The notes beneath the pieces were generated by a model. The model had not been told where the DNA came from. It searched no databases and saw only the letters and a list, made by a program, of their open reading frames with translations. From NCBI GenBank assembly GCA_022729755.1, contig DZAZ01000014.1, positions 1-33,574 on the forward strand: a stretch of DNA of 33,574 nt. Direction: 5' to 3'. Below, one piece after another: positions 14,650 to 29,473 of the stretch (the stretch's first letter is position 1; every line of letters starts with the position of its first letter). Source of the DNA: Helicobacter cetorum (GTDB lineage: Bacteria; Campylobacterota; Campylobacteria; Campylobacterales; BB28). A program made the translations under genes and the position numbers.

Positions 14650-17094
14650 TTAATTAAATAATTTTTCTATATCTTTTGTAATTAAATCTGGTCTAAAGAA
14701 ATATTCATAAATTTTACCAAATTCGATAAATTTAGCCTCTTTCTCTTGTCCTTGATTTATATGATAGCCCACAAATTCGCCACCATTATATGAAGATGTA
14801 AAGTAACCATCTCTATTCCACATAACCCATTCTCCACAACTTCCAACGAAAATATTTAAAACTGGATAGATGGTCTTATTGCTTCCTATTTCTCTTAAAT
14901 CCCAAATTTTGATGATATTATCTTTTGAACCACTAACTAAAATATGTTTGTGACTTGATAAAGCCATAATAGTGTCAGTATGTCCTTCAAATGAAGCTAA
15001 TTCACTTCCATTTAAATCATAAGCTTTTAAAATTCCAACGTGTCCGCCTGAAATTATTAAGCCACCATCACTAAATCCATAAACTTTATGAACAAAGCCA
15101 TTGGCACTACTATCTCTTAAAATTTCTTTGTAGTTTTCTTGATTTTTAGTTAAAACTAAAATTGCATCAAGGTCATTATATCTTCCACCCATTTTATGCG
15201 AAAGTGAATATTTGCCATAAGTTAAAGGCATAACTTTTGAATTATTTACTTCATTATTTTTTAAAATAAAATTCTCTAACGAAAAACTTCTAGTATTAGC
15301 TTTTGTATGGCTTTTTATCGCTACATCACTTAAAACTTCATTTCCAAATAAAATATTTGCTCCATCAATTGAAACACTTGTAACTGGAGCTCCAAAGCCT
15401 ATAAGTTTACCCAAACTTTCGCCATTTTTAATATTCCACATATAAATTTCTTGTGCATCATAACCACCAGCTGTAATTGCAGTTTGATTGTCTAAAAATG
15501 CAACCCCACCTAAATTTTCAATTTGTTTATCAAAACTTGAAACTTGGCTAAAATCACTCATTTGATAAACTTTAGTTTCGATTTTTCTATCATTATCCCA
15601 AGCTGAAGTTAGTAGATACTCACCATTTGGAGAGAAAGCTAAGTTTTTTTGTCTAAAACCTACATCAATACTTTTCACTAAATTTAAATCTTTATCCAAA
15701 ATATTTACAACTCTATCATATCCACCAGTTGCAATATAATTTAAATTTATCGCAATTGAACGAGCATCTTTATGCTCAAAACTTTTTAGTAAATCTCCAT
15801 TTAAATTAAACATTCTTATAAAACCATCATAACTTGCTGAAATAATTTTATAAGTCCCATCTTTATCTTTGAAAATTTTTACATCATTAGTGTCTGATGT
15901 ATTAGCTTTTATAGCTTTAATTAAATTAAACCAAGTTTTGATACTCACATCATTATTAGCCCAAATATACTCTCTTGATTTTTGATAAATTTTAATTTCA
16001 CCATTTTTTAAAGCGGTTGCTAAATATTCTCCGTCTTCACTAACATCGCTTCTTTTTATAACTGAAGTATCTTTTAAAACTTGAATAATCTCTTTTGTTT
16101 TAAAATTATAAATCCTAACAGTTGGCTTTGCATCTAAACTTCTAGTATCAACAACAGCAGCTATTAATAAATCTTTTGTGAGTTCAATATCTTGGATAGA
16201 GCCAAATCCATCCCCAATTTCGCCTCTAATTTCACCAATTAAAGTTTTTTTATATAAATCCCAAATTTTGATGGTTTTATCTTCACTAGATGTAATTAAT
16301 AAATTATCTTTTACCAAAATTTGAGTAATTATTCCAATATGACCTCTTGTATTGATTTGCAAAAATGCTTGTCGTTTTTCTATCAATTCAGCCAAAATTT
16401 CAGCTACACTTTTTTCACTTCTTGAAACTCTTGAATTTGTAGCATTATATAAAAGCTCACTAAATTCGCCTCTTGTGGATTGAATTGGTTTTGAGTTTTT
16501 TGAGAGTTTTATCTTTTGTGTCAAATCTCTTTTATCTTTTAAACTTCTTGTATTTCTATACACACTATCGCACTCTTCATAAGTATAAAAAGAGCTATTT
16601 TTTATAAAAAAGTAATCTAAATAGTTAAATTTATCTGAAACTATTTTATAAATCTCACCCTCATTTATCGCTTTTAGAGTTGAATTTTGAGTTTTAAAAA
16701 TTCCATTTTCATCAGTTATTGCCACAATTTCAAAACCATTTTCACTCTTTTTAAATAGTTTTGCATCTCTTAAATTTGTGCTTAAACTTTCACCAAAAAC
16801 TATCTCTGGATTTAAAATTTTATCTTCACTCGTTTGTATTTCGCAATTATCAACTCCTGAAACCCAAAAACCATCTTCATTAGCAATATGGGCTAAATCC
16901 CCGCCTTTATTTGGCATATATGAAGACCATCTACTGTTTTTATAACTAAACACACTTGATACACAACTAGCATTAAAATTATTCATATTAACGATATCTT
17001 CACTCGCACCAATTAACTTCCAACCCCTATTAACCTCTATTACTTGAGCATTTAAAAACCCAAGTAAAAATACTATTGAAAATAAAATTTTCAT
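14650..17094 (-). CDS. Secreted WD40-repeat protein
   Basis: The protein has about 814 residues. ATG at 17094 is favoured over the one at 17103 because AGGGAG directly abuts the earlier codon and is 9 bases from the later one. A signal peptide (MKILFSIVFLLGFLNAQ) places it in the periplasm or outside. Residues about 18-85 form a GWKLIG...GFWVSG module with two Cys (SCVSS, DNCEI), of a kind frequent in secreted Campylobacterota proteins. About 200-250 is helical and basic. About 250-745 carries WD40-type blades, for example TSSEDKTIKIWDL, AITAGGYD...IYMWN and VSGSKDNIIKIWDL. The last 65 residues (GEWVMWNRDGYFTSSYNGG...GYHINQG...YEYFFRPD) resemble the tail seen after WD40 repeats in some caspase-like bacterial proteins, but no protease domain is present. 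It lies between znuA-like and lepA genes. The role is probably protein-protein interaction; the partner is unknown. Confidence 0.82.
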   Translation of the reverse strand: MKILFSIVFLLGFLNAQVIEVNRGWKLIGASEDIVNMNNFNASCVSSVFSYKNSRWSSYMPNKGGDLAHIANEDGFWVSGVDNCEIQTSEDKILNPEIVFGESLSTNLRDAKLFKKSENGFEIVAITDENGIFKTQNSTLKAINEGEIYKIVSDKFNYLDYFFIKNSSFYTYEECDSVYRNTRSLKDKRDLTQKIKLSKNSKPIQSTRGEFSELLYNATNSRVSRSEKSVAEILAELIEKRQAFLQINTRGHIGIITQILVKDNLLITSSEDKTIKIWDLYKKTLIGEIRGEIGDGFGSIQDIELTKDLLIAAVVDTRSLDAKPTVRIYNFKTKEIIQVLKDTSVIKRSDVSEDGEYLATALKNGEIKIYQKSREYIWANNDVSIKTWFNLIKAIKANTSDTNDVKIFKDKDGTYKIISASYDGFIRMFNLNGDLLKSFEHKDARSIAINLNYIATGGYDRVVNILDKDLNLVKSIDVGFRQKNLAFSPNGEYLLTSAWDNDRKIETKVYQMSDFSQVSSFDKQIENLGGVAFLDNQTAITAGGYDAQEIYMWNIKNGESLGKLIGFGAPVTSVSIDGANILFGNEVLSDVAIKSHTKANTRSFSLENFILKNNEVNNSKVMPLTYGKYSLSHKMGGRYNDLDAILVLTKNQENYKEILRDSSANGFVHKVYGFSDGGLIISGGHVGILKAYDLNGSELASFEGHTDTIMALSSHKHILVSGSKDNIIKIWDLREIGSNKTIYPVLNIFVGSCGEWVMWNRDGYFTSSYNGGEFVGYHINQGQEKEAKFIEFGKIYEYFFRPDLITKDIEKLFN

Positions 17095-17113
17095 AAAATA
17101 CATCTCCCTTTAT

Positions 17114-17986
17114 TTATTTTTGATAACTCTGTGCAATAATTTTAGCTAACTCTAGTAAATTTTCAGACCAATTTATAGCAAGTGGTGAGAGTGGTTTTAC
17201 TTTGGCTCCAACTTCACTTGCTATAACTTTAGCAGCTTTATCTGAAAATTCAGGTGCAGTTATTATAACTTTTATTTTCTCTTCTTTAGCCTCTTTTATG
17301 ATGTGCATTAGCATTTTTGGTTTTGGCTCTTTTCCTTCAAACTCTATTGGAAATTGAACTAAATCATAATCTCTTGTAAAATATCCAAATGCTGGATGAA
17401 ATACCATTACTTTAGAATTTTTTGGCACATCTTTTAATATTTCTTTGATTTTATTATCACTATTTTCTATCTCTTTGATAAATTTTTCATAATTTACTTT
17501 ATAAATATTTTCATTATTTTTATCATAAGTAATTAAGATATCAAGAGTATTTTTAGCAATATTTTTCACCTCTTTTGCACTCATCCAAATATGTGGGTCT
17601 TTTCCATCGTGATGGTGATTATCTTTGTGTTCGTGATGTTCGTGTTCTTCGTGTTTTTCAAAATCAATATAATTAGCATTTTTGCTAATATCTTCTATTT
17701 TCATATTTTTATTTTGAGATGCAAATTTCGTAAGCCACGGTTTTTCAAACTCATTTAATCCTATCTTCATATAAATTTTAGCTTTTTCGATGGCTTTCAT
17801 TTGAGATGGTTTTGGCTCATAACTATGAGGGTCAGCACCAATTGGAACCATAACATCAACATTGACAAATTCACCTCCAATTTTTTCCACAAAAGTTTTT
17901 TGAGGTGCTATTGTGACTACAACATTCATATTTGCAAACAGTGTCGCACTACAAAGTAAACTAACTATTGATACTGTTTTTAACAT
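17114..17986 (-). CDS. Zinc ABC transporter substrate-binding protein, ZnuA-like
   Basis: The protein has 290 residues. I choose ATG at 17986, since AAAGGA lies about 8 bases upstream and the protein then opens with a proper signal peptide (MLKTVSIVSLLCSATLFA). A longer frame from 18016 overlaps the chemoreceptor stop. It is a cluster A-I metal-binding protein with the canonical ligands: His54 in GADPHSYEP, His132 in KDPHIW and His197 in VFHPAFGYF. A histidine/acid-rich loop at about 110-128, characteristic of zinc binders, lies between the first two. The usual Asp in the C-terminal LDPL motif is Ser here (LSPLA at about 266-270), leaving a three-His site. No permease or ATPase gene is adjacent, so it must work with components elsewhere or have a sensory role with the chemoreceptor gene directly upstream. 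Confidence 0.9.
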   Translation of the reverse strand: MLKTVSIVSLLCSATLFANMNVVVTIAPQKTFVEKIGGEFVNVDVMVPIGADPHSYEPKPSQMKAIEKAKIYMKIGLNEFEKPWLTKFASQNKNMKIEDISKNANYIDFEKHEEHEHHEHKDNHHHDGKDPHIWMSAKEVKNIAKNTLDILITYDKNNENIYKVNYEKFIKEIENSDNKIKEILKDVPKNSKVMVFHPAFGYFTRDYDLVQFPIEFEGKEPKPKMLMHIIKEAKEEKIKVIITAPEFSDKAAKVIASEVGAKVKPLSPLAINWSENLLELAKIIAQSYQK

Positions 17987-17996
17987 TTTTTTTCCT

Positions 17997-19994
17997 TTAT
18001 TGAGTTTTGAACTCATTTAATTTTTTGCTTAACTCTTCAGTAGTTTTATGTAAATGCTCAATCGTAACAACCATTTCTTCCACACTTCTTGCATTAGAGC
18101 TTGAAAGTTCATTTACCTCTTCTACCTCTTGAATTTTATCTTTTACACTATTTGATATTTTAATAGTATCTATCAGCGATTTATCGGCAACTTTAGCACT
18201 ATTTTGCATAATGGTTGAAGTATCGTTTATTTTATGTTCAACTTCATTAGACACACTAGAAAGCTCACTAATAGCTTTTGAATTGATATTCATTTGCTCA
18301 CTTGCATCAACAATTGCTTGAACTATTACATTGATAGTGGCATTGATTTCACTTAAGCTTTTTTGAGTTCGCTCGGCAAGTTGTCTAACCTCATCAGCCA
18401 CAACCGCAAAACCTCTACCGTGTTCACCAGCACGTGCCGCTTCAATTGCGGCATTAAGTGCAAGTAAATTTGTTTGGTCAGCAATATCATTAATTACAGT
18501 TAAAACATTTTTTACAGCCTCTGCATCTGTGCTTAATTGATTTAATTTTCTTGCAAGTTCTTCTTCAATTTGAGAACTTTTATTGATTTTTGCAACCATA
18601 TCTAAGATTTTACTTCTAGCATCTTCTAAATTTTCACTAGCATTTATAATATCTTTTTTTGTCTCTTCAGCTTCAATAATGGAATCTCTCAATAACTCTT
18701 CCATCTCTTTTGAACTTTTTACAATTACATCTATAATTTGTGCTTCATTTTCAACTCTATTTCCAATTTGAATTGATGTAGCATATAATTCATTTGCAAT
18801 TGAAGCACTCTCATAAGATGTATCTTTTGAACTACCAATTGTTAAATGTATTTTTTCAATAAATTTATTAATTTCAGCACTTGCTTTACCTATTTCGTTC
18901 GAATTTACTAAAAGTCGTTTTGTTAAATCGCCATCGCCATTAGCTAAGTTTGTAGCTCTATCTTTTAAATCGTTAAGTTCTCTTGTGATGTCGCTTATTA
19001 AAATATAACTAAATATAATTGATAGTAACACCACAATGAAATTTATGCTTATAAAAAGGCTCATCTTATATTCTGCTGTTAAAATTATCTCTTCAATCTC
19101 TAATAATAAATTTTTTGATAACTCATCTTCAACCTCTTTTAATAAATTTATCTTTTGAGTAATAGTAGTAAAAAAGTATCCTGCTTCAACTCCAAATTCA
19201 CCTTTGTCATATTTTGAGATAGCGATTTCTCTCATTTTATTAACTTCAGCGACTATATTATTTTCAAGTTTCATTTGTAAAAATTCTTTATTTTTATCGC
19301 TTGAGCTTATATTAAAAGAGTTTATATAACTATCTTGTTCAGTTATTAATTTTATAAATTTAATAAACATTCCATCTGCAAAACTATCTTTTGCAAAAGT
19401 GTTGGTTAAAACGGCTCTTTCAACTCCACTTCTCTCTTTTGATAATAAAAAATTTGAGTATGAAATTAAACTTTTTGTCAAATCATTATTTGAACTTATT
19501 TTAGAAATACTACTAATAGTTTCTAAAAAATTATTATTTAAGTTGGTGTAATAATTTAGCACATCTTGAGCACTAATAGACAATGAAGTAATTTTTTCTC
19601 TTATCTCTTTTAAATTATTTAATTCACTTAAAGCTCGTGAAATAGCATCAAATAAAGTTTTTGGATAAACAGTTGTGTCAAATTTAAAAGTTGCTAAAAA
19701 TTGCTCTAAATCTTCCTTTTTTTTATCACTTTCAATTCTTTGAGCTTTTAACTCATCACCAAATTTTTTTCCACTTGAACCAACAAATCCTGAAGACATT
19801 CCTCTCTCTTTTTGAATTTCGTGTACTAAAGTACTAATTTTTACAGATAAAAAAACACCATTTTTTAAAAAAGTTGCTTCCTTATACTCTATATATTTAT
19901 TAAAACTTAAATTAATGGATAAAGCAATAATTGTAACAATTAAGATTAATAATATAGATATTAATCTTACTTTAATCGAAATATTTTTTAACAT
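17997..19994 (-). CDS. Methyl-accepting chemotaxis protein with NIT sensor domain
   Basis: The 665-residue inner-membrane receptor has membrane segments at about 11-30 and 312-335. The periplasmic part between them is a NIT (nitrate/nitrite-sensing type) domain, recognised by [19 protein letters not shown] near 60-78 and [19 protein letters not shown] near 178. A HAMP domain follows (about 335-390, [19 protein letters not shown]). The signalling domain has the invariant hairpin tip in [20 protein letters not shown] and EVRQLAERT. No CheR-binding pentapeptide is seen at the C-terminus. AAGGA precedes ATG. It is the first gene of the leftward five-gene run, with the zinc-binding protein gene starting 10 bases after its stop. 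The ligand is unknown; NIT domains are proposed to sense nitrate or nitrite, but the genomic pairing suggests metal sensing is also possible. Confidence 0.92.
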
Positions 19995-22640: not shown

Positions 22641-22750
22641 AGATTATTATTATTTCAAATAGATAAGTTATATTAGTTGTTTTATAAGTTAAATTTAATT
22701 AGAGTTTTGATAAATTCAGTTTCAAATTAAAATTTACAAAGGGGGTAAAT

Positions 22751-24208
22751 GTGGCAAGAGTAATCGTACTTGGTGCAGGTGTTTCAGGACATACTGTAGC
22801 TACATTCACAAAAGATTGGCTAGGTAAGGGACACGAGGTTATCGTTGTTTCTCCAAATAGTAGATGGAATTGGATACCATCAAATATTTGGGTTGGAGTT
22901 GGGTTAATGCAACCTGAAGATGTAACTTTTGAGTTAGCACCTGTTTATAAAAAAATAGGAATTGATTAAAGACAAGCAAAGGCGGTTTCAATCAATCCAG
23001 AAGGTGATAGCGAAATTAACAAACCTTTCGTAACTATCGAATATACTGAACCTTCAAAAGAAGGCAAAGTTGAAAAAGTTAGTTATGATTATTTAGTAAA
23101 TGCAACAGGACCTAAGCTAAATTTTAATGCAACCGAAGGATTAGGGCCAGATAATGGACATTCACTATCGGTTTGTACAGCACTTCACGCAAAAGAAGCT
23201 GCAACAAAACTTGATGAAATTATAAAAGAGATGAAAGAGGGCAAAAAGAAAACTTTTGTAATTGGTGTAGGTCACGGAATGGCAACTTGTCAAGGTGCGG
23301 CATTTGAGTATATTTTTAATGTTGAACACATTTTAAAAAGAAATAATGTTAGAGATAAAGCAAAATTAATTTGGATTTCTAATGAGTTTGAACTTGGCGA
23401 CTTTGGAATGGGTGGACTTCACATTCAAAAAGGTGGATATATTACAAATAGTAAAGTTTTCACAGAATCAGTTATGGCAGAGCGAGATATCTTTTGGATA
23501 ACAAGAGCTCATCCTACAAAAATTGAAGATGGAAAAATCCACTATGAAACACTTGATGGCGAGTTTAAAGTGATTGATTTTGACTTTGCAATGTTAATTC
23601 CTCCATTTGCTGGAGTTGGTTTAAAAGCTTACAATAAAGCTGGTGAAGATATAACAGCTAATTTATTTGCACCAAATGGCTTTATGAAAGTAGATGCAGA
23701 TTACACTCCAAAAGCTTATGAAGAGTGGCAAGCTAGTGATTGGCCAAAAACACTACAAAACCCAACTTATAAAAATATTTTTGCGGTTGGAATTGCATTT
23801 GCACCGCCTCATCCAATAAGTAAACCAATGAAAAGTCCAAATGGAACACAAATTTTCCCAACACCTCCAAGAACAGGTATGCCTTCTGGAATTATGGGAA
23901 AAGCGATTGCAGGAAGCATAGTTGATATGATTAGAGGTGCAAAAGAGCCAACTCATACAGCAAGTATGGCAGAGATGGGTGCAGCTTGTGTAGCTTCAAC
24001 TGGTGCAGGAATATTTGATGGAAGTGCAGCAGCAATGACAGTTTTTCCAGTTGTGCCTGATTTTAAAAAGTATCCAGAGTTTGGAAGAGACCCAGAGTTA
24101 ACATTTGGTGAACTAGGGCTTTCAGCACATTGGATAAAATATATACTACATCATATGTTTATTTACAAAGCAAAATTAAAACCAGGTTGGACATTAATTC
24201 CAGAATAG
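22751..24208 (+). pseudogene. SQR-like FAD/NAD(P)-binding oxidoreductase with in-frame TAA
   Basis: The frame is 485 codons long, interrupted only by TAA at 22967-22969 (codon 73). Sequence on both sides is in the same frame and reads as one protein, from KKIGID through the stop to RQAKAVSINPEGD. GTG at 22751 has an excellent GGGGG ribosome site 5 bases upstream. It is a flavoprotein of the sulfide:quinone oxidoreductase type: GAGVSGH dinucleotide motif near 8-14, VNATGP near 117, and cysteines at about 142, 180 and 413, whose order and spacing recall the three redox Cys of SQR. An amphipathic C-terminal HWIKYILHHMFIYK could bind the membrane. Intact, it would pass electrons from sulfide to quinone. 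As written only a 72-residue fragment is made, unless the stop is a sequencing error, is read through, or the downstream part is reinitiated. Confidence 0.8.
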
Positions 24209-24217
24209 GAGAGAAAA

Positions 24218-24388
24218 ATGGAACAAAAAGTAACAGTAGAAAATCAAAAACCATATGAACAAGCTTATTTCCCGCCAAAACCGACGGGAACAACAAAGTT
24301 TTTTAGAAATTGTGTAATTTGGCAAATTATAAGATTTATCGCTTTAAATATAAAAATGCTTCAAGTCGTTTCTAAATCACACCACTAA
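24218..24388 (+). CDS. 56-residue membrane peptide downstream of the SQR-like gene
   Basis: ATG at 24218 has AGGAGA about 5 bases upstream, starting just 9 bases after the flavoprotein stop, and the frame runs to TAA at 24386. The peptide has a hydrophilic start (MEQKVTVENQKPYEQAYFPPKPTG) and one hydrophobic, slightly basic helix at about 31-50 (CVIWQIIRFIALNIKMLQVV), ending KSHH. The strong ribosome site and spacing argue for a real gene co-transcribed with the flavoprotein. It could be a small subunit or membrane anchor for that enzyme, which is an inference from position only. I do not recognise a family. Confidence 0.68.
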   Translation: MEQKVTVENQKPYEQAYFPPKPTGTTKFFRNCVIWQIIRFIALNIKMLQVVSKSHH

Positions 24389-25358: not shown

Positions 25359-26439
25359 TTACACAACTGGAGTTCATACAGTAGCTACGATTAAGGCACT
25401 TTTAAGTAAAAACTATAAAAGTGTAAAAATAAAACTTCCAACTAAGAAAATTGCAAATATTAAAATAAATAATTTTTTAAAAACTAAAAATTTTATAAAA
25501 GTTACCTCAATTAAGGGTTTAAACGATGATTTAGATGTTACAAAAGGTTGTAAAATAGAAACTTTTTTAGTAAAAAAAATCAAAAAAAATTTTTTAAATA
25601 AAATAAAACATAATCCAGTAATTATAAAAATTAATTCAAATAAAATTTATCTTTATGCTGGAATTGGTGTGGGAGTTGTGACTAAAAAAGGCTTAAAAAT
25701 CGATGTTGGCTATCCTGCAATCAATCCAATACCATTAAAAATACTAAGAAATGAAGCAAAAAAAGTATTAAAAACTAATCATAAAAAATTTCATTTTATA
25801 ATCAGTGTTAAAAACGGCGAAAAATTAGCAAAAAATACGGCAAATTCAAAAGTTGGAGTTCTTGGAGGGCTTTCGATTTTAGGCACAAGTGGAATTGTAA
25901 AACCTATTTCAAATGAAGCTTATTTAAGTAGCATTGAAACTGAAATTAAAGTTGCAAATGCAAATTGTAAAAAAATTATTTTTACTCTTGGAAATTTAGC
26001 TTTTAATTTTGCAAAAGCACAAAATAGAGAAATTTGTGTAGTTGAAATTGGAAATTTTATATTTAATTCATTTGAATTTTTAAAAAAATGTAATTTTGAA
26101 GAGGTCATTTTTATCGCAAGTTTAGGCAAAATGACAAAAGTTGCACAAGGTTTTAAAAATACTCATAATCGTTTTGGTGAAATTGATTTCAATTTGCTAA
26201 AACTTTGGATTAAAGAAGAGTTTAAAATTGAATTAAATCATAAATTTAATACTACAAAAGAGTTAATTAATGAATTATATAAGCTTAATTTAAGTGAAAA
26301 GCTTTATCTTTTAATTATACAAAAAGCAATCGAAGTTTTGAGTGGTTGGAGTGAATTCAGTGCTAATTTAAAAGTGATATGCTTAGAAGAGAAAAAAGAG
26401 GCTACTTTAAGTTTCTCTTTGGAAAAGCTAAAGCAATAG
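25342..26439 (+). CDS. cbiD: Cobalt-precorrin-5B (C1)-methyltransferase
   Basis: The 365-residue CbiD of the anaerobic cobalamin route adds the C1 methyl group from S-adenosylmethionine before ring contraction chemistry is completed. Conserved landmarks are SYTTGVHTVATIKALL at the N-terminus (usually GYTTG.CA), YAGIGVGVVTKKGL near 105-118, VGYPAINPIP, NGEKLAKNTANSKVGVLGGLSILGTSGIVKP near 158-190, and GKMTKVAQGFKNTH. The family often reads AAAAKAALL where this has VATIKALL. Other cobalamin genes are not in the window. Its start overlaps the Met8-like gene by 17 bases. Its 3' end overlaps the convergent ccsBA gene by 38 bases. The lysine-rich linker residues are typical of this low-GC genome. 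The assignment is confident. Confidence 0.93.
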   Translation: MKLKSSYTTGVHTVATIKALLSKNYKSVKIKLPTKKIANIKINNFLKTKNFIKVTSIKGLNDDLDVTKGCKIETFLVKKIKKNFLNKIKHNPVIIKINSNKIYLYAGIGVGVVTKKGLKIDVGYPAINPIPLKILRNEAKKVLKTNHKKFHFIISVKNGEKLAKNTANSKVGVLGGLSILGTSGIVKPISNEAYLSSIETEIKVANANCKKIIFTLGNLAFNFAKAQNREICVVEIGNFIFNSFEFLKKCNFEEVIFIASLGKMTKVAQGFKNTHNRFGEIDFNLLKLWIKEEFKIELNHKFNTTKELINELYKLNLSEKLYLLIIQKAIEVLSGWSEFSANLKVICLEEKKEATLSFSLEKLKQ

Positions 26440-29400
26440 TTGTAAAAACAATTATTATCGTATAATAGACAAAATCTGGCACGGGAACAGGGTCACCTTT
26501 TGCATAAGAGTGAAGTCCAGAGAGGTAAAAATTCACTCCAAAGTAAGTCATAATAACTGAAGCAAACCCAACTAAACTCATTATATTAAAAATATAAATT
26601 GAGTTGAAGTTTGGAATAAATCTCATATGAAGTATAAAGATATAAATCAGCATTGTTACGAGTGTCCAAGTCTCTTTTGGGTCCCAACCCCAATATCTTC
26701 CCCAAGATTCATTTGCCCAAACTCCACCTAAAAAGTTACCAATTGAAAGTAAAATAAGACCAACTATTAAACTCATTTCATTTATGTAAGTCAACTCTTT
26801 TATTGATAAATCTAAAAATTTAGAGTTTTTTCTAAGAATAAATAAAATTAAATTTATAAATCCTAAAATTGCACCCAAACCTAAAAAGCCATAACTAGCC
26901 GTAATTACTGAAACGTGAATTGTGAGCCAATAAGATTTTAAAACAGGAACTATATTTGAAATTTGAGAATCCATCCAACTTAAATGTGCAATAAAAAGAG
27001 TTAAAGCAGCTAAAATTGCCGTTGCTGAAATTGTCATAGATGAATTTTTAGCAAAAATAATTCCAGCTAAAATTGTTGCAAAAGAGATATAAATCATCGA
27101 TTCAAAGCCGTTGCTCCAAGGTGCATGACCCGAAATATACCATCTAAGTAAAAGTCCAAAAGTGTGAAAAATAAATCCAGCAATTAGTAAATATTTGGCT
27201 ACTTTTATGACTTTGTCTAAATTCAATTTTGGATTTAAAATATGGCTAAATGATAAAATAAGTAAAATAAATCCAATAATCCCATAAAATGGCATAAGAT
27301 TTTCAAAAATATTTAAATTATTATAGAGTAATTCAGCCTCGATTTTACCGTCACTTTGAATAAGATTAGCTCCATTAATCCTTTGATAATTAATAATTTC
27401 AGCCAATTTTTTATTTGGCTCACTCCAATCTTGTGAATTTAGTGATTTATCGATTGCTTCAAAATACTCTTTTGTTAAATTTTTCACTATCTCTTTATCA
27501 TTATTTTGGAAAGTTTTCATCGCATCAATTGGTGAATACCAAGCACTATTTGCATCATTTACTTTAGGAAAAATTTTTAACAGCTCTCCTGTAAAAATCA
27601 TAAAAGAGATATTAATTCTCTCATCAACTGCTAAAATTTCTTTATCAAATTTATCCCTAAATGCTGGTCTTTTTCGATTTGCTTCTTCAACATAAGGAAG
27701 TAATTTATATCCTTCAGCTTCATCAAAAAAGTCCACAAATGCCAAATATTTCTCATTTTTTTCAATTCCTAAAATTTCATTTATTTGAGGATTTGAAACT
27801 TTTAATAATTTTATCATTTGCCATTCACTCGGCTTTGTGGTCATTCCTAAAAGTATTTGATTTGCACTTAAACCATAAAATTCACTTTTTTTTGAAATTT
27901 TATTTAAAATTTCTATTGAAAGTGTACTTATCGGCTTTATTCTACCCGTTACATCTTGTACTAAAAGTTCGCTAAAGCTGTCAGAATGGGCTTTGTCAAA
28001 TGATTGAATAGTTTTTAAAATATCTTCAGTATTAGCATTTAAAGTTGTAGAAAAGCCAAAAAATAAAATCATTATTAAACTAGCAATTAAACTCTTTTCG
28101 TTTTGAACTTTTGATAAATTTTGCATCAATTTTCTAAATCTTCCTTTTGGGCTTAAAAGCGATAAAAACATTCCAATTCCTAACATCCAATATCCAAGAT
28201 ATGTTATAAAAGTACCTAAATAATCGTGATTTACCGAAAGAATTGTACCTTTTTCATCTTGGTCATAAGATGATTGATAAAACCTAAATCCTTTATAATC
28301 CAAAATATGGTTCATATAAATTCTATAATCAAAGCTGTTATTTCCATCAATTACACTAACTTCACTTGCATAAGAAGATGGGCTCATAGAACCAGCATAT
28401 CTCTCAAGCTCGAAATCTCGCAACTTTATCGCAAAAGGAAGTGTAATATATTTGCTTCCATAAGAGATATCAAAATGCAAACCATCAATATCAATATGAC
28501 TAGCTTCGCCAAATTGCCCATTTTTACCTAAAACACTAACAACTTCACTCTTATCATTTACATCAATTTTAAATTTAAAAGCATCAATTGCACCATCTTT
28601 AGAGTTTGAAGAGATAAGTTTAACTCCAGCTTTTGGATAAAAATTCTTAAGTACAAATTGAATTTGCTCATTTGAATATAGTGTTCTAGTTTCTAATTTA
28701 TTAAGCTCACTTGAATTTAACTCGCGAACTTCCCTTGTATCCATTGAAAACGATTGAATTTGTGAATTTAATTTAAAAAAGAGTTCTTTTTCATTTAGTT
28801 TAAATTCAACTCCATCGCAACTTTGATTAAAACAAAATTTAACTCCACCAACGTCTTTAATTTCACCTTCAGCCAAAAATATACTTTCAGGATTAGCACT
28901 ATTTGAAACCATAAGTGAAAGAGTTGGTTTACCATTTTCATCTTCTATAATAGAATTGGTAGCATTTGGAATAAACTCAATCAAATCAATATCAATCTTT
29001 TTATCTTTTATTGCTAATTTTTGTTTAAAATTATGACTTCCAAGTTCGGCTAATAAAAGTTTATCTTCAAAATAGTAATTTTTTTCGCCATCATTTATTT
29101 TAAGTTGAAAATAACTATCACTTGTTAAAATTTGATTTTCACTCATACCTTCTTTAATACTCATTGTGCCTTCATAACCAATATATCTTGTAACACCAGC
29201 ACCTAGTAAAATAAATAAAAATGCTAAATGAAACAAAAAAATACCAATCTTTTCTTTTTGATAAAGTTTAAATCTAAAAATATTTACAATTAAATTGATT
29301 GTAAGTAAAATAAGAAGCAACTCAAACCATTTTGCATTATAAATTAAAACTTTTGCACTATTTATACCAAAATCATTTTCGATAAATGTAGCACTTGCTA

Positions 29401-29473
29401 CTGCAATTGCAAAAATAATGGTTAAAATACCCATCATTTTCATAGAACTTAAAGCTTGAAAAAAATCTTTCAT
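26402..29473 (-). CDS. ccsBA: Fused cytochrome c synthase CcsBA (System II)
   Basis: The 1023-residue protein is the natural CcsB (ResB) plus CcsA fusion typical of Campylobacterota. It exports heme and ligates it to CXXCH motifs of periplasmic c-type cytochromes. The N-terminal ResB part has membrane segments at about 13-32, 50-68 and 78-97, a large periplasmic domain to about 420, and another helix near 425-442. A second large extracytoplasmic region (about 480-715) precedes the CcsA part. The heme-handling WWD domain is at about 919-936 (WANESWGRYWGWDPKETW). External His candidates are in FHTFGLLLRW, GHAPWSNGFES and LHSYAKGD. AAAGG lies about 10 bases before ATG. It is convergent with cbiD, overlapping it by 38 bases, and divergent from ileS. 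The presence of System II implies c-type cytochrome respiration. Confidence 0.96.
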   Translation of the reverse strand: MKDFFQALSSMKMMGILTIIFAIAVASATFIENDFGINSAKVLIYNAKWFELLLILLTINLIVNIFRFKLYQKEKIGIFLFHLAFLFILLGAGVTRYIGYEGTMSIKEGMSENQILTSDSYFQLKINDGEKNYYFEDKLLLAELGSHNFKQKLAIKDKKIDIDLIEFIPNATNSIIEDENGKPTLSLMVSNSANPESIFLAEGEIKDVGGVKFCFNQSCDGVEFKLNEKELFFKLNSQIQSFSMDTREVRELNSSELNKLETRTLYSNEQIQFVLKNFYPKAGVKLISSNSKDGAIDAFKFKIDVNDKSEVVSVLGKNGQFGEASHIDIDGLHFDISYGSKYITLPFAIKLRDFELERYAGSMSPSSYASEVSVIDGNNSFDYRIYMNHILDYKGFRFYQSSYDQDEKGTILSVNHDYLGTFITYLGYWMLGIGMFLSLLSPKGRFRKLMQNLSKVQNEKSLIASLIMILFFGFSTTLNANTEDILKTIQSFDKAHSDSFSELLVQDVTGRIKPISTLSIEILNKISKKSEFYGLSANQILLGMTTKPSEWQMIKLLKVSNPQINEILGIEKNEKYLAFVDFFDEAEGYKLLPYVEEANRKRPAFRDKFDKEILAVDERINISFMIFTGELLKIFPKVNDANSAWYSPIDAMKTFQNNDKEIVKNLTKEYFEAIDKSLNSQDWSEPNKKLAEIINYQRINGANLIQSDGKIEAELLYNNLNIFENLMPFYGIIGFILLILSFSHILNPKLNLDKVIKVAKYLLIAGFIFHTFGLLLRWYISGHAPWSNGFESMIYISFATILAGIIFAKNSSMTISATAILAALTLFIAHLSWMDSQISNIVPVLKSYWLTIHVSVITASYGFLGLGAILGFINLILFILRKNSKFLDLSIKELTYINEMSLIVGLILLSIGNFLGGVWANESWGRYWGWDPKETWTLVTMLIYIFILHMRFIPNFNSIYIFNIMSLVGFASVIMTYFGVNFYLSGLHSYAKGDPVPVPDFVYYTIIIVFTTIALAFPKRNLK

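Follow-up and report, generated by a model that had tools for sequence, protein, structure and literature searches.

Type IV sulfide:quinone oxidoreductases (SQRs), or SqrD, include Chlorobium CT0117 and Thiocapsa TrSqrD, and homologues of this type have been reported across the Campylobacterales and in purple sulfur bacteria (PMC4584964, PMC9666304), with SqrD being reported in all sequenced Sulfurimonas examined (PMC4584964, PMC7952632). A peculiarity of the type is an alanine, instead of an apolar residue, immediately before the C-terminal cysteine (PMC9666304). Solved structures are available for the type I SQRs, namely those of Aquifex aeolicus (3hyv/3hyw) and Acidithiobacillus ferrooxidans (the 3t31 group). 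Here we describe an SQR gene whose reading frame is interrupted by a single stop codon, in the manner of recent nonsense pseudogenes, in which one premature stop likewise lies in a coding sequence that is otherwise preserved; the present case is known from an assembly consensus.

The gene lies in a window of 33,574 nucleotides, which is the whole stretch of DNA analyzed here and lies on contig C120 of a draft genome (G000; 2.1 Mb in 132 contigs, 88% complete). We propose that the host is an uncultured member of the Campylobacterales, that the gene is chromosomal and that its product is a membrane-associated SQR. The features of the gene are as follows:

22738 to 22750, forward strand: ribosome-binding region (AAAGGGGGTAAAT) ahead of the GTG start, seen in the sequence and also in the same-genus relative G001
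22751 to 24208, forward strand: SQR gene, most likely type IV (sqrD-like), of 485 codons with one internal stop, from the sequence and the homologue alignment
22967 to 22969, forward strand: in-frame TAA at codon 73, where homologues have Phe, Tyr or (in one) His, from the sequence and the alignment
22751 to 22969, forward strand: predicted 72-residue product, comprising the N-terminal part of the FAD-binding fold and no redox cysteine
23231 to 24208, forward strand: first ATG/GTG/TTG restart past the stop, giving 325 aa that lack residues 1-160, including Cys142

Elsewhere in the window, one protein of 1023 aa that combines ResB-like and CcsB/cytochrome c assembly domains is encoded on the reverse strand (26402-29473), as are a WD40-repeat protein (817 aa) and a neighbouring chemotaxis receptor with a nitrate-sensing NIT domain (14650-19994).

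The initial annotation had called the product an SQR-like flavoprotein with three SQR-like cysteines, and both parts of this description are borne out. The best matches of the protein among solved structures are the type I SQRs of A. aeolicus (E 1e-36) and A. ferrooxidans (E about 1e-32), it matches the Pfam Pyr_redox_2 model above the cut-off, and its 485 codons can be aligned over their full length with those of 109 other homologues, giving an alignment of 110 sequences. The GxGxxG signature of the N-terminal dinucleotide-binding fold is present as GAGVSG (residues 8-13), with G8, G10 and G13 being invariant in the alignment. The SQR-type redox cysteines are Cys142, Cys180 and Cys413, each of which is found in at least 109 of the 110 aligned sequences; all three align with cysteines of the A. 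aeolicus SQR, and the first two also with those of the A. ferrooxidans enzyme. The relationship to type I is nevertheless a distant one, and the window protein is longer (485 versus about 430 aa).

With type IV SQRs the window protein shares the three redox cysteines as well as the characteristic alanine, since Ala412 directly precedes Cys413, and an alanine occupies this position in 105 of the 110 family members. Homologues were recovered from most Campylobacterales, purple sulfur bacteria, Gallionellaceae and others, with related loci in Sulfurimonas, Sulfurospirillum and other Campylobacterales, a distribution like that reported for type IV. On the basis of this distribution and the Ala412-Cys413 fingerprint, the gene product is best assigned, as most likely, to type IV (SqrD), from which it differs in that the window gene alone bears an in-frame stop at codon 73. 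At codon 178 (23282-23284), two residues before the central redox Cys180, the usual Cys178 is an alanine in the window protein; this alanine is otherwise seen only in G001, L031 and L097 (4 of 110 sequences).

The frame is opened by the GTG at 22751 and closed by a TAG at 24206-24208, and the TAA at codon 73 is its sole interruption, as had been claimed at the outset. The good ribosome site described there is likewise present: the start context AAAGGGGGTA(A/G)ATGTGGCAAGAG is common to the window and G001. None of the other 109 aligned homologues has an internal stop. In these, the codon aligned with codon 73 encodes Phe 62 times, Tyr 46 times and His once; among the 29 from the same order the counts are Tyr 19, Phe 9 and His 1, so that the suggested comparison with relatives did uncover a Tyr or Phe codon at this site. 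The only other species of the genus compared, G001, has an intact SQR that is 86% identical and encodes Phe at codon 73. A search of viral contigs for the same stop site gave no match. A frameshift or indel near the A7 tract preceding the stop was considered and rejected, as the flanking residues align without gaps in the nearest relative. A selenocysteine was also rejected, the codon being TAA rather than TGA and the relatives having Phe or Tyr; the NCBIfam SQR-III selenoprotein model matches only weakly (49 bits against a cut-off of 525).

Comparison with G001 shows purifying selection on both sides of the stop, with dN/dS being 0.23 for codons 1-72 and 0.13 for codons 74-485. Past the stop, nucleotide differences between the two genes number 128 at third positions, as opposed to 38 at first and 31 at second positions. 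At positions that are otherwise conserved, the window branch has 6 changes and the G001 branch has 7, and the tip lengths are equal (0.094 and 0.097). The statement that the rest of the gene shows no decay thus holds, and these measures give no sign of relaxed selection in the window SQR, which implies that the stop is either very recent or not real. The end-to-end alignment with homologues, the common start context, the redox cysteines and a genome scan that found no similar stops (see below) together establish that 22751-24208 is not a chance open frame.

Three explanations had been offered for the TAA, namely recent loss, sequencing error and readthrough, of which the first two both stand and the third proves unlikely. 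We consider it slightly more probable than an even bet that codon 73 carries a real and very recent nonsense mutation, with no working SQR being made from this allele. If so, the change to TAA would be very recent, having arisen no higher than the level of the sequenced strain; translation would begin at 22751, with its strong ribosome site, and RF2 (together with RF1, should the genome have it) would release a 72-residue peptide at the TAA. The first in-frame ATG, GTG or TTG downstream of the TAA is codon 161, and inspection of the sequence upstream of this restart at 23231 revealed no clear ribosome site. A product restarted there would be missing Cys142 and the N-terminal part that binds FAD, and with the next start being this distant, neither the predicted 72-residue fragment nor the 325-aa fragment could work as an SQR. 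A second flavoprotein with SQR-type sequence (G000:C121, 382 aa) is intact, so that some of the function could be taken over by it.

Several observations count against a nonsense allele: of the 60 genomes searched, 34 have a full-length member of the SQR family (counting the window's own genome, apart from its stop), the downstream neighbour is itself intact, and G000 did not yield the TAT-signal SQR-like paralogue that G001 carries (C40, 481 aa). Loss of the enzyme would hence be costly, which raises the chance that the base is wrong. Accordingly, we assign a probability somewhat short of one half to the alternative that the TAA stems from the metagenome assembly, as a consensus error or as a minority or chimeric base, and that the organism's own type IV SQR is intact. 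This is in keeping with the state of the draft (132 contigs, 88% complete), with the lack of any further change in the gene that looks like decay and with the strong conservation of the family beside an intact neighbour; a single base difference from a Tyr codon would suffice. A codon-usage scan over 207 kb of the host genome, comprising the window, eleven further stretches and the C121 piece, bears on this in the other direction, as nowhere else did it reveal a stop that is flanked on either side by strong coding signal and lies far from the next start. A single call (L144:17875) looked similar but was rejected, being antisense within a 676-aa ORF. The scan argues against a generally error-ridden assembly, and equally against widespread recoding of TAA, though not against a single error. 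A recent nonsense mutation and a single-base consensus error are thus close in probability.

Readthrough of the TAA by suppression or recoding, yielding full-length SQR, would account for the fully preserved frame past the stop, but we regard it as very improbable. TAA is the dominant stop of the genome, closing 101 of the 130 open frames that reach 200 codons or more (TAG closes 16 of them), on which ground a change of the genetic code is also rejected. No UUA-anticodon tRNA was present among the 26 tRNA genes detected, an incomplete set from which several isotypes, such as Tyr, are missing. The sense codon in G001 indicates that this is not a conserved recoding site, none of the relatives has a stop here, and synonymous divergence just past the stop is not reduced (ps 0.56 for codons 74-160 versus 0.43 for the whole gene). 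The specific version in which lineage-specific readthrough inserts an aromatic residue at the TAA appears more improbable still. Least probable of all is a split SQR consisting of two separate functional genes: a 325-aa ORF does begin at 23231, but it has the defects noted above, and the split genes proposed earlier as a possible finding in relatives were sought and seen in none, each homologue being one continuous gene.

The presence of RF2, which reads TAA, also counts against readthrough: its gene prfB is intact, with the SPF motif. Searches of G000 and G001 (L152, L163), the latter 99% complete, recovered neither the RF1 gene prfA nor rpsT, although prfA is present in the 23 other Campylobacterales relatives searched (one of them partial, at 58% identity, in G007). 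The genes glmM, rpsT and prfA adjoin one another in relatives; G001 also lacks glmM, whereas in G000 glmM stands without rpsT and prfA. Given that TAG still closes frames in this genome and that rpsT is missing alongside prfA, the absence is probably a shared gap of the two draft genomes; a true loss of RF1, if true, would be remarkable. Since RF2 reads TAA, the missing prfA leaves the meaning of this codon unchanged. There is no indication that stop codons are read in any new way here, and the case is an ordinary one.

Immediately downstream of the SQR gene lies a small companion:

24218 to 24388, forward strand: intact 56-aa companion gene with the conserved core P..W Q..RF...N.KM....SH, accompanying the SQR in nearly all loci

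In all, 108 of 110 distinct loci have a homologue of this gene directly 3' of the SQR and encoded on the same strand (108 of the 109 testable). Of the two exceptions, the L054 locus ends near a contig edge and L029 lacks the companion. Among the 60 genomes, 33 of the 34 that have a full-length SQR also have the companion, versus none of the 26 without one. The protein has no Pfam or NCBIfam family match, its C-terminal half is hydrophobic and basic, and two plasmid records annotate it as a hypothetical protein adjoining SQR; a literature search of partial coverage found no description of it. Its sequence and genomic context make it a candidate small partner, subunit or membrane anchor of the type IV SQR.

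The nonsense allele, if real, matters only for predicting sulfide oxidation by this strain and as a caution that automated gene calls will show the SQR as truncated. The companion is the more useful by-product: it is tied to the type IV SQR in Campylobacterota as well as in beta- and gammaproteobacteria and offers a testable candidate.
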